Of a DNA stretch of 64,000 nt, positions 53,649 to 62,592 are shown one piece after another (the stretch's first letter is position 1; every line of letters starts with the position of its first letter). The stretch is from contig JADZDM010000004.1 of assembly GCA_020851035.1 (NCBI GenBank), positions 1-64,000 on the forward strand. Reading direction: 5' to 3'. The notes under the pieces are model-generated. The model searched no databases, had not been told where the DNA came from, and saw only the letters and a list, made by a program, of their open reading frames with translations. The position numbers and the translations under genes were made by a program. The DNA comes from Gemmatimonadaceae bacterium. Lineage in GTDB: Bacteria; Gemmatimonadota; Gemmatimonadetes; Gemmatimonadales; Gemmatimonadaceae.

Positions 53649-54326
53649 ATGCTCGAACAGATTCCATTCGGCACGAACGACTTCGCTGAGAACCCAGAGC
53701 CGCGGTGTCCAGTCGTGCTGCTTCTTGACACGTCGGGGTCGATGAGCGGGCGACCGATGGCGGCTCTCAACGCCGGTCTCCAGACATTCAAGGACGAGCT
53801 GGTCGCGGATTCGCTTGCGGCGAAACGAGTCGAGGTTGCAACCATCTCGTTCGGCCCAGTGCAGGTCCAGCACGACTTCGTTGGCGCGGCTACCTACCAA
53901 CCGCCGACATTGGCCGCGTCCGGAACGACTCCGATGGGCGAAGCGATTGTGCTTGGGTTGGACCTCATCCGTCGTCGAAAGGAGGAGTATCGCGCCAACG
54001 GTATCGCGTTCTATCGCCCGTGGGTCTTTCTGATCACGGATGGCGCCCCGACGGATAGCGTGCATCAGGCCATCGCGGCCATTCAAGAGGGCTCGGCGAG
54101 CAAGGCGTTCTCATTCTTCGCCGTCGGAACCCCAGAAGCGAACATGGAGGTGCTGGCACAACTGTCGCCAGACCGCCCGCCCTTGGTTCTGGACAACCTG
54201 CGCTTCCGCGACTTGTTCGTGTGGCTCTCAAACTCGATGCGCTCGATCTCGCGCTCCACGCCGAGCACTGAGGTGCCTCTCGTCAACCCGGCGGCGCCGG
54301 GCGGATGGGCGTCAGTCTCTGTGTGA
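53649..54326 (+). CDS. vWA-domain protein of TerY/YegL type
   Basis: A 225-residue von Willebrand factor A protein. A complete metal-binding MIDAS is visible: DTSGS at residues 27-31, Thr in TTPMG near 94, and Asp131 in ITDGAPTD. It also has the family opening [17 protein letters not shown]. It is the first gene of a vWA / PP2C / kinase triad on the same strand. I use ATG 53649, which matches the family N-terminus. A GTG at 53589, with GGAGGA six bases before it, would add 20 residues and has the better ribosome site. Confidence 0.88.
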
Positions 54327-54330
54327 GCTC

Positions 54331-55179
54331 GTGGACCAAACGAACAGCGTGAGTAGCGGCAGGCCGTCACCTGCTGAAGCGTGGCGTATCGTTGGCGGTT
54401 CGGTACGCGGCACTTCGCACGTTGACTCTGGCACGCCGTGTCAGGATGCGTGCGAGTTTGCCATTTTGCGTGCTGGAGACGACGCCGTCGCCGCAATTGT
54501 CACCGCAGACGGCGCTGGTAGCTCAGCGCATTCTGACGAGGGTGCGGAGCTGGCATGCGCTGCTCTGCTGGGCGAAGTCTCTGACTATCTCGACGGATAC
54601 GAGCTCTCGGCCATCGACTCCCAAGTCGTGGAGGAGTGGTTTGTACGAGTGCACCAAGCCGTCACCGAACGGGCGGCCGAGCTTAACGTCCAGGTACGAG
54701 AGCTCGCGTGCACGCTGCTTCTCGGCGTGGTCGGAATGAACCGCGCGGTTTGCGCGCAGATTGGCGACGGTGCAATCGTCGTCAATGATGCCACCGCCGA
54801 AGGTGGATATGCGCCCGTCACGTGGCCTCAGTCAGGCGAGTATGCGAACCAGACTTTCTTCGCGACCGACCAAGAAGCACTGCGGCATCTTCAGATCGCC
54901 TTGCTCGAAGATCGACGAATTGATGAGATCGCGCTATTCTCCGACGGATTGGAGAAGTTGGCGCTGAATATGGGTACACGCTCCGCTCACGGGCCATTTT
55001 TTGAGTCGCTGTTCAGGCAGCTCAGGCCGCTGAGTCGTGGAGCTACCGCGAACATCGAGGGGCAGTTTCGCGCCTTCCTCGATTCTCCCGCCGTGAATGC
55101 CCGCACAGACGACGACAAAACTCTGGTGCTCGCGACGCGGCGGCATGGCGCGTCCCTGTTGCCTGTCAGCAACCAATAA
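54331..55179 (+). CDS. PP2C-family protein phosphatase (PphC/YegK type)
   Basis: A 282-residue metal-dependent Ser/Thr phosphatase, cytoplasmic. PP2C metal ligands appear in order: the CQDA segment (Asp39), TADGAGSSAHSDEGA near 58-72, AQIGDGA, LFSDGLE, and a C-terminal DDDKTL. In the triad it presumably reverses phosphorylation by the kinase downstream. The start is uncertain: GTG 54331, four bases after the vWA stop, is preferred. It ends 9 bp before the kinase ATG, which suggests coupled translation. Confidence 0.87.
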   Translation: MDQTNSVSSGRPSPAEAWRIVGGSVRGTSHVDSGTPCQDACEFAILRAGDDAVAAIVTADGAGSSAHSDEGAELACAALLGEVSDYLDGYELSAIDSQVVEEWFVRVHQAVTERAAELNVQVRELACTLLLGVVGMNRAVCAQIGDGAIVVNDATAEGGYAPVTWPQSGEYANQTFFATDQEALRHLQIALLEDRRIDEIALFSDGLEKLALNMGTRSAHGPFFESLFRQLRPLSRGATANIEGQFRAFLDSPAVNARTDDDKTLVLATRRHGASLLPVSNQ

Positions 55180-55188
55180 GGCGCAGAA

Positions 55189-57183
55189 ATGAAGGGTCCT
55201 TCCGTTCCGGTGCACGGACGCGGCTTCGTTGATGGTGCTGGCCGTCAGGTGCGTCTTGGGCAGGAGCTTGGACGCGGTGGCGAGGGTACTGTCTATGACG
55301 TCGTCGGCGCCCCGACTCAAGTGGCGAAGGTGTATCATCATCAGCCTGACAGCGACAAGGCGGCGAAGCTCGCTGCGATGACCCGCGTAGCTTCGCCGGC
55401 ACTTTCTACTGCAGGCGCGTGGCCCATGGCGACATTGCATGCGTACGCAGGCGGACCTGTCGCGGGCTTGATCATGCCCCGCGCGAGAGGCGTCGAGGTG
55501 CATCGTGTGTATAGCCCCGCGTATCGCAAGGCCGAGTTTCCCGGCTACGACTGGGAGAAACTCATCTTCATCGCGAGAAACATCGCCGCAGCGGTCAGCC
55601 ATATTCACCACGCAGGACACGTGGTCGGCGACATGAACGAGGGAAACGTACTTGTCGCGCCGAACGGTATTGTCCAGCTGATCGACTGTGACTCGTTTCA
55701 AATCGACGATGCTGGAGAGTGGCGCCTCTGTGAAGTGGGCGTGGCGAATTTCACGCCACCAGAGCTACAGTCTGCGTCCTTCCGCGGCGTCGTACGGACA
55801 CCGAATCACGATGCCTTTGGCTTAGCGGTGTTGATCTTCCATTTGCTCTTCATGGGTCGCCATCCGTACGCAGGTCGGTTTGGCGGCACGGGCAATATGC
55901 CACTCGAGCAAGCAATTCGTGAGCACCGTTTTGCATTTGGCCGCAACGCGGGTTCGGTGCTGATGGCACCGCCGCCTGATTCCCTGCCCCTGGTCAGCGC
56001 ATCAGAATCGCTCGCGGCTATGTTCGAGAGGGCGTTTGGCGAAGCAGGTTCACGCCCGGGCGCGCGCCCGAGCGCTAAAGCGTGGGCATTGGCGCTCGAC
56101 GGATTACGGGCGGAACTCGCGACCTGCAATGTCAACCGCGCTCATCGCTTCCATCGATCACTCGGGACAGCATGTCCATGGTGTGCTATCGAAGCGACCG
56201 GCGGACCGAACTTCTTCGTGTCAGTAGTTGCAGCGGTTCAAGCCACGGCGGGCGGCTTCGATCTACACGGCGTGTGGGCATCCATCATTGCCCAGACAGC
56301 ACCGGAAAGAGATCCGCCGTTCCCCGCACCAGTGGTCGGTGCGCTCACGCCGAGCGCGAAGGTGACCTGGTGGCGACGGCTGGCGTGGCGAACCCAGAAG
56401 TGGCTCATGCGGGCGTCCGTCGCCGGTGGTGTCGTCGCATGGATCGCATCTGCTCAAGGTCACGCCGTGGACACGCGGGAGAAGCTCGCCATCGTCGGTG
56501 CCGGCGTAAGCGCGTATGCTCTCCGAAGAGTGTCCCGCCTCGCGCACGAGCATGTTCGCTTGAAGGCTGCTGTCACGGATGCGCGCGCGCGACTCCGCGG
56601 CCTTGAGGCCGAGTGGGTCTCGGAACACCAGAAAGCCGCGGATCAGTTCAGCAGACGCGTCGCGGATCTTGCTGCCATGCGCGACGAGTATCTGAAACTC
56701 GAGGAGTCAAAGAATGCGGCGCGTCAGAAGCTTGATCGAGAGCGTCTGGCACAACAGCGGCGCGCATTTCTCCAGAAGCACTACATCAGAACTGCAACGC
56801 TGAGTGGAATTGGTCCAGGGCTCACGGCGACCTTGGCGTCGTTCGGCTTTGAGACTGCCGCTGATCTGGAGGGGAGGCGCGTGTACGGCGTTCCTGGATT
56901 CGGACCCGCGCGCGTGGCTACGCTTATGGCGTGGCGACAAGGACTCGAAGCCAGATTCCGATTTGACCCGACGAAGCCCGTCGATCCCGCCGAGGTGGCT
57001 GCGCTTGAGCAGAAGTTTGCTCGGCGGAAGGTTGAGATTGAACGAACACTTCTCGCGGGCCCAAGTGACTTGCGTCGAATGCTCTCATCTCACAGTCAAG
57101 TCAGGCAGCGACTGGAGGAGCGTTTCGCAGCGCAGCGGAGAGAAGTCTCCCTCTCTGAAGCTAATCTTGCGGTTGGACAGTGA
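55189..57183 (+). CDS. Protein kinase with coiled coil and helix-hairpin-helix (YegI type)
   Basis: A 664-residue Hanks-like kinase. Gly-loop ELGRGGEGTVY (26-36), Lys47, catalytic GDMNEGN (147-153) in place of HRDxxxxN, and metal-binding DCDS (167-169) in place of DFG; these variants are typical of the YegI group. Cys313, Cys329 and Cys332 (CPWC) with nearby His suggest a zinc knuckle. A hydrophobic stretch (about 405-447), a long coiled coil (about 455-530) and a helix-hairpin-helix fold (SGIGPGL near 539, GVPGFGPARVATL near 567) follow. The HhH implies DNA contact. It is the third gene of the triad. Confidence 0.88.
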   Translation: MKGPSVPVHGRGFVDGAGRQVRLGQELGRGGEGTVYDVVGAPTQVAKVYHHQPDSDKAAKLAAMTRVASPALSTAGAWPMATLHAYAGGPVAGLIMPRARGVEVHRVYSPAYRKAEFPGYDWEKLIFIARNIAAAVSHIHHAGHVVGDMNEGNVLVAPNGIVQLIDCDSFQIDDAGEWRLCEVGVANFTPPELQSASFRGVVRTPNHDAFGLAVLIFHLLFMGRHPYAGRFGGTGNMPLEQAIREHRFAFGRNAGSVLMAPPPDSLPLVSASESLAAMFERAFGEAGSRPGARPSAKAWALALDGLRAELATCNVNRAHRFHRSLGTACPWCAIEATGGPNFFVSVVAAVQATAGGFDLHGVWASIIAQTAPERDPPFPAPVVGALTPSAKVTWWRRLAWRTQKWLMRASVAGGVVAWIASAQGHAVDTREKLAIVGAGVSAYALRRVSRLAHEHVRLKAAVTDARARLRGLEAEWVSEHQKAADQFSRRVADLAAMRDEYLKLEESKNAARQKLDRERLAQQRRAFLQKHYIRTATLSGIGPGLTATLASFGFETAADLEGRRVYGVPGFGPARVATLMAWRQGLEARFRFDPTKPVDPAEVAALEQKFARRKVEIERTLLAGPSDLRRMLSSHSQVRQRLEERFAAQRREVSLSEANLAVGQ

Positions 57184-57292: not shown

Positions 57293-59062
57293 ATGCTTAC
57301 GAAGCTGACGCTTAAGAACTTTCGCGGATTCGAGGAGCATGAGCTTCCCTTGCGCAGGCAAACGATCATCGTCGGCCGCAACAATGCTGGCAAGTCAACG
57401 ATTGTCGAAGCCTTGCGGCTTGTTGCACTGTTCACGTCCAGATTGCCGACTGGTACTTTCAGACCGCCACCGGAGTGGCTCGACCAGCCTGGCGCCGGGC
57501 GAGGAATTTTCTCGTCGCTCGACGGTACGTCTTTCGATTTTGACACTGCTCACCACCGATATGCTCCGCCGCCAAGTGTGATCACAGCCGAGTTCTCGCA
57601 TGGTGCGGTTCTACGGCTTTACGTCGGCGATTCACAAATCTTCGCATCTGCGCAGAATCAGCAAGGTCGCCTCGTTGGTGACCGAGCGAGCGCCCGACTT
57701 CTCGCGCTTCCCCCAGTTTTGATCATGCCGCAGATAGGTCCGCTGGCGCTCGAGGAACGGCTGCTCAATTCTGAATACGTGCGCAGGATGCAAGGCACGC
57801 CGCTCGCGTCCCAGCACTTTCGCAATCAGTTGCATCTGGATGCTGAGGGCTTCGAGCGCCTGCAGAAGCTCGTCGAAGACACTTGGCCCGGAGTCAGGAT
57901 CGACGATCTTCTTCTTGAAGACGCTGCTGGTATCGATGCGTCTGACAAACTGAATCAGCGTCTTCTACGACTCATGATTCGCAACGACGACTTTGTTGGT
58001 GAAGCTGCACGAATGGGTACCGGCCTTCAAATGTGGCTTCAGACGATGTGGTTGCTAGCGAGAGCGTCGAGTGATGCGACTGTCATTCTCGATGAGCCGG
58101 ACGTGTACATGCATCCAGATCTTGAGCGTCGCCTCGTGCATGTGGTCAGTGGGCGGTACGCGCAGTCCATCATTGCTACTCATTCGGCCGAGATCATGGC
58201 GGAGGTCCAGCCTGATGAAATTCTCGTCGTTGATAGGAGTAGATCGTCGTCAAGCTTTGCATCAACCCTACCTGCTGTGCAGGGAGTCCTAGACGCACTT
58301 GGGAGCGTACACAACCTTCAGCTAGCTCGACTGTGGACGGCTCGCCGCCTCCTGCTCGTTGAAGGTGACGATATTGCGATTCTAGGTCCAATCCACTCAA
58401 CGCTGTTCCCTAACTGTTCGTTACCGCTCGCCTCTCTCCCGCGTGCTGAGGTTGGTGGCTGGGGCGGATGGGAGCGTGTGATGGGATCTGCTGACGTTAT
58501 GCGAAACTCCCTTGGTGAGCAGATCATGGTGTACGCGCTATTTGATCGAGACTTTCGCACGCCGACCCAGATCCAAGATCGCCTCGAGAAGGCAAAGCGG
58601 GCTCGTATCAATGCTCACATTTGGCAGCGAAAAGAGATTGAGAACTTTTTGCTAGTCCCAAGTGCCATCATTCGTGTGCTGTCCGCTCGAGTCGCCCGTC
58701 GTGAAGAGTTGCCGACTGCACAGGACGTGGAGGGGGCGCTCGACGCTATCGAGGCGGAGTTATGGGCGAGTGACACGGAGGTGTGCCTTGTGACTTCATT
58801 CGGAGCAGAAGTCAAGAACAACACAGGTACTGCGCTGCGCAAAGCACGTGAGTACGCTGATCCACTGCGAGCAACGCGTGAGGGTCGTTGGGCACTTGCG
58901 GGAGGGAAGCAAATGCTGTCGCAGCTCTCCAAGTGGACGCAAGATCGGTACGGCGTGTCATTGAGTGCACTGGCCTTGGCGCACGCCTTACAGCCAGACG
59001 AGATTGCTGCAGAACTCAAAAGTGTGCTTACCGCTGTTGAGACCGGAACACCGCTGGAATGA
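57293..59062 (+). CDS. OLD-family ATP-dependent nuclease (AAA-TOPRIM)
   Basis: A 589-residue overcoming-lysogenization-defect family protein. The ABC-type ATPase part has Walker A GRNNAGKST (28-36), signature-like GTGLQMWLQ (242-250), Walker B VILDEPD (264-270) and switch THSAE (296-300). The TOPRIM part has LLLVEGDD (353-360, Glu357), DRD (418-420) and KEIENFLL (447-454). No GIY-YIG or UvrD helicase gene is adjacent, so it looks like a stand-alone class 1 OLD. It lies 109 bp past the kinase on the same strand, leaving room for its own promoter. A defence role is an inference. Confidence 0.88.
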   Translation: MLTKLTLKNFRGFEEHELPLRRQTIIVGRNNAGKSTIVEALRLVALFTSRLPTGTFRPPPEWLDQPGAGRGIFSSLDGTSFDFDTAHHRYAPPPSVITAEFSHGAVLRLYVGDSQIFASAQNQQGRLVGDRASARLLALPPVLIMPQIGPLALEERLLNSEYVRRMQGTPLASQHFRNQLHLDAEGFERLQKLVEDTWPGVRIDDLLLEDAAGIDASDKLNQRLLRLMIRNDDFVGEAARMGTGLQMWLQTMWLLARASSDATVILDEPDVYMHPDLERRLVHVVSGRYAQSIIATHSAEIMAEVQPDEILVVDRSRSSSSFASTLPAVQGVLDALGSVHNLQLARLWTARRLLLVEGDDIAILGPIHSTLFPNCSLPLASLPRAEVGGWGGWERVMGSADVMRNSLGEQIMVYALFDRDFRTPTQIQDRLEKAKRARINAHIWQRKEIENFLLVPSAIIRVLSARVARREELPTAQDVEGALDAIEAELWASDTEVCLVTSFGAEVKNNTGTALRKAREYADPLRATREGRWALAGGKQMLSQLSKWTQDRYGVSLSALALAHALQPDEIAAELKSVLTAVETGTPLE

Positions 59063-59116: not shown

Positions 59117-59983
59117 TCAGTTGGGAGTCGATACGATGACTCCGTTTCGGACGTATCGGTTCCGCAGCGACTCGGACTCGTGGAAGATCATAGCTAGAAA
59201 ATACTCGATTCGGGTGGCGACGAGTGCTCGTGTTCCTTTCGTCTGCCCGTAGATGCTGATTGCCGCAAGCAGGTCGGGTGTGTTTGGGCTGGAGAGGCTC
59301 TGTGACATCCACACACCACCGCCGCTGATTCCATTTTGTTTCTTCATCGAATACAGACCGTCAATGTCAAGCACGCGATCTGGTCGAAACTTTATCGCGA
59401 CGTGATGCTGTGCATTAAATGCACCTTCACCGATAGCTCGATACCTCGATGGCTCCAGCTCTACACCAGTGAAGATCGTCATTTTCGGATGAAAGGACTG
59501 GTCAGCGTCGTTACGGTTTTGGTGTGCAACCGGATAACCCAGAATCGTCCAGAACTTTGCGTTGCTCGTCGTTTCGGCGAGACATATGTCCTTCATCTCA
59601 ATCCATCGGATATCGCGCAGATCCTCGGCAATCTCGTCTGGCAGTTGCACAACTGCAGCGTCTAGCCAGTCTCTCGAGCGTTCTGCACAAGTCCCCGTCG
59701 TCGAAAAGGTCGGCAGGGTGAAGAAGTGAGTGGATCCGCCCAGAACGAGCTCGCCGTGCTGCGCCCAATCTGTTACGTGAGCAGCCGTGAGTGCAAAGTG
59801 CATTCCGTCAATTCGCAAGAGAACGCTTGAGCCGACAAGCTCAAGTGAACCATCAGTGCGTTCGAGGCCGATGGGCCTGACGCATGAACTAGTCTCTGCC
59901 GCAAAGCTTAGCGCTCGAGTGTTTATGAGTTCGCGAGCTAAGCGCTCCTTGGGTGTTCTTGGCTTATTCCTTCCTCGCGTCAT
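59117..59983 (-). CDS. Trypsin-like serine protease
   Basis: A 288-residue chymotrypsin-fold peptidase without signal peptide or membrane span, hence cytoplasmic. The catalytic triad is readable: His69 in LTAAHV, Asp108 in DWLDAAVV, Ser220 in NGISGGG. The N-terminus is basic (GRNKPRTPKERLA). The ATG at 59983 is preceded by GGGAGAGG and lies one base after the stop of an upstream frame, suggesting coupling to a lost upstream gene. It converges on the OLD gene with 54 bp between stops. The substrate is unknown. Confidence 0.82.
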   Translation of the reverse strand: MTRGRNKPRTPKERLARELINTRALSFAAETSSCVRPIGLERTDGSLELVGSSVLLRIDGMHFALTAAHVTDWAQHGELVLGGSTHFFTLPTFSTTGTCAERSRDWLDAAVVQLPDEIAEDLRDIRWIEMKDICLAETTSNAKFWTILGYPVAHQNRNDADQSFHPKMTIFTGVELEPSRYRAIGEGAFNAQHHVAIKFRPDRVLDIDGLYSMKKQNGISGGGVWMSQSLSSPNTPDLLAAISIYGQTKGTRALVATRIEYFLAMIFHESESLRNRYVRNGVIVSTPN

Positions 59984-60408: not shown

Positions 60409-62441
<2,033 letters not shown>

Positions 62442-62592
62442 CGGGGCTGCTCCGAGCCAAGGCTGCTCGGAAGATGCCCCGCCATCCGGTCCTACCAGCC
62501 ACTCCAGTCTGCCATCCATTGCCCAGCTCCCGCGGTGGGGGTGGGGCATTTGAGACGATCACTGGGTGGGGAATTTGAGACGATCACTGACA

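Follow-up and report, generated by a model that had tools for sequence, protein, structure and literature searches.

A YegI-type protein kinase with a predicted helix-hairpin-helix tail, encoded with vWA and PP2C partners in a Gemmatimonadaceae bacterium

The protein kinase of 664 amino acids encoded at 55189..57183 on the forward strand of the window, the 64,000-nucleotide stretch of Gemmatimonadaceae DNA that we analysed, is, as judged from sequence comparison, homologous to E. coli YegI along its full length and belongs to a known but incompletely understood kind. It is very probably a YegI-family eukaryotic-like Ser/Thr kinase, probably membrane-anchored, within a YegL-PphC-YegI module that forms a branch of the TerY-type triads of vWA protein, PP2C phosphatase and kinase. 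PMC13232886 describes YegI as an active inner-membrane Ser/Thr kinase which autophosphorylates and from which PphC removes the phosphate, and its autophosphorylation as a Ser/Thr kinase also appears in a passage of PMC12189002. E. coli has very few eukaryotic-like Ser/Thr kinases listed, YegI among them, and the relevant part of PMC7535926 gives the in vivo role of YegI as unknown.

Identity of the kinase and its partner genes

In a pairwise BLASTP comparison, E. coli K-12 YegI and the 664-aa kinase shared 37% identity (231/623 positions, E 6e-123). The two proteins are collinear over these 623 positions, the alignment spanning the kinase domain, the CPWC motif, the hydrophobic region and both hairpins of the C-terminal helix-hairpin-helix (HhH) pair, and being weakest in the hydrophobic and coiled-coil part. 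The genomic company of the two kinases is also alike. Directly upstream in the window, on the same strand, lie a gene for a YegL/TerY-like vWA protein (53649..54326; PF00092, 3.1e-08), whose start codon was set by alignment with YegL, and a gene for a PphC-like PP2C-type Ser/Thr phosphatase (54349..55179; PF13672, 5.4e-49), for which a GTG start was assumed. E. coli YegL is 59% identical to the former over 223 aligned positions and PphC is 38% identical to the latter over 253, so that the three genes stand as in E. coli yegL-pphC-yegI. The association of the kinase with vWA and PP2C partners, on which the earlier note had relied, is thereby borne out by Pfam and by collinear matches to YegL and PphC. 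The two systems differ in that pphC and yegI are separated by yegJ in E. coli K-12, unlike at the Gemmatimonadaceae locus, in that YegI has another residue where N153 would be expected and carries a Ser near that position, and in that the membrane region is less hydrophobic in the 664-aa kinase than in YegI.

Genome contigs yielded no relative when scanned with the single sequence, and at least 450 when an alignment of 14 sequences served as the query. We kept the best 80 of the latter; these are biased to full-length, HhH-type relatives, and fractions computed from them are no census of the family. By their record titles they span proteobacteria, Acidobacteria, planctomycetes, Myxococcota, Firmicutes, Chloroflexi and methanogenic archaea. 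In the 80 fetched loci the kinase was present in all, PP2C in 76, vWA in 75, and the three together in 75. Of the five loci without vWA, four start close to or right at the edge of their contig (L070, L099, L100, L107), and the fifth, L079, is an exception in which the gene is either really absent or diverged; in one locus, L055, the kinase comes first in the order of the triad. Nine methanogen loci (L046, L056, L062, L064, L065, L068, L070-L072) carry a kinase with degenerate HhH hairpins, and in eight of them vWA and PP2C are present, the ninth, L070, being cut by a contig end. Among plasmid records there were 51 matches, with "protein kinase YegI" or "helix-hairpin-helix domain-containing protein" as the annotation of some, and a phage collection gave one partial match. 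Within Gemmatimonadota, 9/395 genomes, the source genome included, had a match at E<=1e-20, and neither of the two sampled genomes from the same genus had the kinase at that threshold.

Kinase domain, probable zinc site and hydrophobic helices

The motifs reported in the earlier note were found at their expected places in the open reading frame, GDMNEGN at residues 147-153, DCDS at 166-169 and CPWC at 329-332. Pfam PF00069 (3.8e-08) matched residues 23-229 at 33.5 bits, just above its cut-off of 31.7, and nothing else in the protein exceeded the Pfam cut-offs. Together with the secondary structure of the model and with conservation, this places the kinase domain at about residues 23-308 (55255..56112, forward strand). 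The full-length model has a mean pLDDT of 92 and matches kinase structures.

We take D148 to be the Asp of HRD, N153 to lie five residues further on as expected, and D166 to be the Asp of DFG. In a family alignment of 82 sequences (the 664-aa kinase, YegI and the 80 relatives), D148, N150, D166, D168, S169, Q171 and E192 are each present in 82/82, K47 in 81/82 and N153, which the 664-aa kinase retains, in 51/82. The family signature is consequently GDxN...DxDSFQ where HRD...DFG is expected, with the catalytic aspartates kept. The statement that the kinase replaces HRD and DFG was right about the residues around both aspartates, and overstated the change as a whole, since K47, D148, N153 and D166 are all kept. 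On the altered motifs one might read the protein as a pseudokinase: the H and R of HRD and the FG of DFG are absent, and N153 is far from universal in the family. Against this, the 664-aa kinase has the Hanks-type hallmarks, namely K47 (the VAK Lys), D148 of the catalytic loop and D166 equivalent to the DFG Asp, as well as N153 and a Pkinase match above cut-off, and YegI is described as autophosphorylating in PMC13232886 despite its Ser near the N153 position. With the catalytic Lys and both Asp retained, we rejected the pseudokinase reading, which is highly improbable.

The CPWC knuckle noticed earlier is real and makes up half of a larger set, for C313, H319, C329 and C332 are each conserved in 82/82 sequences of the alignment. 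In the model these residues (56125..56184, forward strand) adjoin two short strands, 310-312 and 320-322, and the beginning of helix 330-336, and they probably form a zinc-binding knuckle. TerY-P kinases are described in part of PMC11090510 as having a C-terminal zinc ribbon, and by analogy that ribbon and the CHCC site may be one element.

Further on, a hydrophobic region exists as the earlier note had said, though not as a single stretch: in the model it consists of helix 390-422 and the first part of helix 429-517, and both helices are weakly hydrophobic in the 664-aa kinase, where the best 19-residue hydropathy means are 1.14 and 0.97. Two hydrophobic segments exceeded a rough threshold in 64 of the 76 sequences long enough to test. 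The helices at about residues 390-452 (56356..56544, forward strand) may form a membrane hairpin. The long coiled coil was likewise recovered, as predicted helix 429-517 (56473..56739, forward strand), whose beginning is the second hydrophobic helix.

The C-terminal fold and the variety of tails

A structure prediction for comparison with HhH proteins, of the kind proposed in the earlier note, was run on residues 510-664. The AlphaFold2 model has a mean pLDDT of 96.2 and shows two hairpins between helices, followed by a long helix at 600-663 (56986..57177, forward strand). The HhH helices lie at 543-551, 562-565 and 573-589, so that the region 538-585 is HhH in the model, and the pair as a whole covers about residues 530-596 (56776..56976, forward strand). 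In Foldseek, Y-family polymerases and RAD51-family proteins ranked highest; RuvA, DNA ligase (LigA) and the RNAP alpha CTD came lower, and no match reached E < 0.001. VIA-align gave the RAD51 N-terminal region as its best match (Z 7.4, rmsd 2.6 over 67 residues), a score which, being below 8, can by the tool's own note reflect a common arrangement alone, and it also returned Dpo4/DinB and the RNAP alpha CTD. SAM domains were matched with Z about 6, so that the folds found are not those of DNA-binding proteins alone.

At the level of sequence, Pfam HhH models gave no match at E<=1 in the 664-aa kinase itself; HHH_5 was found in 5/14 family members and, in a separate count, in 5/64 at E<=0.01. 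A sequence-profile search of the PDB with the C-terminal part returned weak matches only, with L32e, REV1 and DinB over the HhH region and coiled-coil chains ranked higher, and public records name some relatives "helix-hairpin-helix domain-containing". Taking the confident model and these relatives together, HhH is the right fold call, at moderate score, and the C-terminal HhH pair read from the sequence is upheld.

The tail varies among relatives. The kinases of the same phylum, with the exception of that of the same-family genome G244, match the 664-aa kinase only up to the CPWC site, and in 7/9 of the other same-phylum kinases (L006-L011, L014) the C-terminus holds a TonB_C domain, in L007 just below the Pfam cut-off. 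The L006-L014 triads resemble the present one in the kinase domain and C-H-CPWC part (38-44% identity over about 310-345 aa) and, in several, in PP2C and vWA signature motifs upstream, but BLAST found nothing in them that matches the HhH region. In the G244 kinase HhH and TonB_C occur together, the arrangement that is recorded for the YegI-like kinase of L005 (952-3240, reverse strand), and a further C-terminal TonB_C domain is recorded for P0001, from a same-family genome. Elsewhere the HhH region is followed by SH3 (L080, L081, L093, L094, L106) or PEGA (L087); in two Sphingomonadales loci, L024 and L027 (4923-7079, forward strand), a topoisomerase-type (Top1-type) Zn ribbon follows it. These varied C-termini, on same-phylum and other relatives, indicate that the core stays constant and that HhH is one tail among several.

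Genomic setting and possible roles of the module

G+C content drops from about 0.64-0.73 to 0.54-0.64 across 53-60 kb, and at the edge of this stretch lie reverse-strand ORFs (60409-62549) that, from their translations, we take to be IstB- and IstA-like and to form an IS21-type element. These two features and the absence of the kinase from the two same-genus genomes suggest a horizontally acquired island. Just downstream of the kinase, an AAA/OLD-type ATPase gene (57293-59062, forward strand) matches PADLOC AriAB at 4.9e-27 and also AriA, GajA and Old; its product is possibly, by these matches, a PARIS- or OLD-like defence protein. The protein of 288 aa encoded at 59117-59983 (reverse strand) had no match in Pfam (E<=1), NCBIfam or PADLOC; its TAAH and GISGGG motifs presumably point to a trypsin-like protease.

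For the relatives, neighbour lists comprised up to two ORFs per side, of 90-899 aa, picked by a simple longest-ORF rule, and 113/138 listed downstream and 106/129 listed upstream proteins were given to Pfam. CoA_transf_3 was the commonest family downstream (5/113, with AAA_21 in 2/113), and ACR_tran (5/106) and SH3_3 (4/106) were the commonest upstream. The genes beside the triads are thus of mixed function, and a conserved functional neighbourhood was rejected. In three rhizobial loci (L022, L023, L029) the triad stands beside His-Xaa-Ser radical SAM genes (hxsA, hxsB, hxsC), and in L022 and L023 an SH3-domain gene follows the kinase.

By the mechanism that we propose, the kinase would autophosphorylate and then modify a target, the PP2C phosphatase would reverse this phosphorylation, and the vWA protein would serve as a metal-dependent adaptor, giving reversible Ser/Thr phosphorylation at the membrane or close to it. 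The CHCC site, together with the coiled-coil/HhH region in the cytosol, would probably act by docking a partner and in this way place the kinase or control its activity; the partner may be a protein or, somewhat less probably, a nucleic acid.

In a rival reading, the kinase would sense DNA structure or damage and be switched on by the binding of its HhH pair to DNA. The glycines of HhH hairpins have a general role in DNA contact, and the 664-aa kinase keeps both GxG motifs intact; its fold is related to the HhH of RAD51, Y-family polymerases and RuvA/LigA, residues 531-592 carry a net charge of +3 (against a median of +2 and a range of -5 to +6 in the 80 relatives), and a Top1-type Zn ribbon has been added in the two Sphingomonadales relatives. 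However, GxG occurs in both hairpins in 37/80 relatives, in one in 25/80 and in neither in 18/80, nine methanogen loci being among these 18, and the 664-aa kinase lacks the R-K after hairpin 1 (R 43/82, K 52/82 in the alignment). The hairpin tips are less constant than the scaffold, in which L549, A557, W582 and F590 do not vary across an alignment of 64 sequences. This speaks against a single conserved contact to the DNA backbone shared by every member, while such a contact is possible in the 664-aa kinase. A probable membrane anchor, same-phylum kinases with other C-termini in place of HhH and the lack of a DNA-repair theme among genes beside the triads also speak against it. The sensing of DNA structure or damage advanced in the earlier note is therefore unsupported, given the uneven GxG, the SAM-domain matches and the TonB_C tails in the same phylum; DNA sensing by this kinase is possible and unproven, and as an account of the module we consider it unlikely. 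Somewhat less unlikely, though still doubtful, is that the triad relays a cell-envelope signal, with the HhH/coiled-coil part confined to dimerisation or protein docking. The further C-terminal SH3, PEGA and TonB_C domains of relatives, the last in seven of the nine other same-phylum kinases, the SH3 genes beside some triads and the membrane location given for YegI in PMC13232886 favour it, but the 664-aa kinase has no periplasmic domain, ends after the coiled coil, and has weak hydrophobic helices.

A role in defence has to be weighed from the likeness to TerY-P, in which vWA, PP2C and Ser/Thr kinase are encoded together (as given in parts of PMC11090510, PMC4978471 and PMC7699616) and which protects against phage according to sections of PMC10889362 and PMC7699616. 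The present locus encodes the same protein types, its kinase has, beyond the kinase domain, a Cys-rich site that probably binds zinc and may correspond to the TerY-P ribbon, a gene with AriAB/GajA/Old matches adjoins it and it lies in the stretch of low G+C. However, PADLOC matched neither the vWA nor the PP2C protein, and its STK_OB match is confined to kinase residues 144-197; the tested TerY-P defence system has an OB fold where the 664-aa kinase has HhH and coiled coil, and the model of the latter contains no strand of at least three residues after residue 322. Membership among OB-type TerY-P defence kinases was consequently rejected. No CoCoNuT genes were seen among the neighbouring ORFs scanned, and next to the triads there is no enrichment of defence genes, as the AAA_21 count shows. 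An anti-phage TerY-P system is thus improbable here.

Returning to the YegL-PphC-YegI module, one may speculate, although we hold it distinctly improbable in this full form, that the triad is a fixed signalling core of kinase and CHCC site with C-terminal input modules swapped between lineages (cytosolic HhH with or without the Top1-type Zn ribbon, SH3, PEGA, TonB_C), the HhH form being a membrane-tethered kinase dependent on nucleic-acid contact at the membrane. With the Gemmatimonadaceae locus, the YegI family gains a member outside the phylum of E. coli, and the residues and partners kept in bacteria and archaea alike come into view; the HhH tail is common in this family and yet replaceable.
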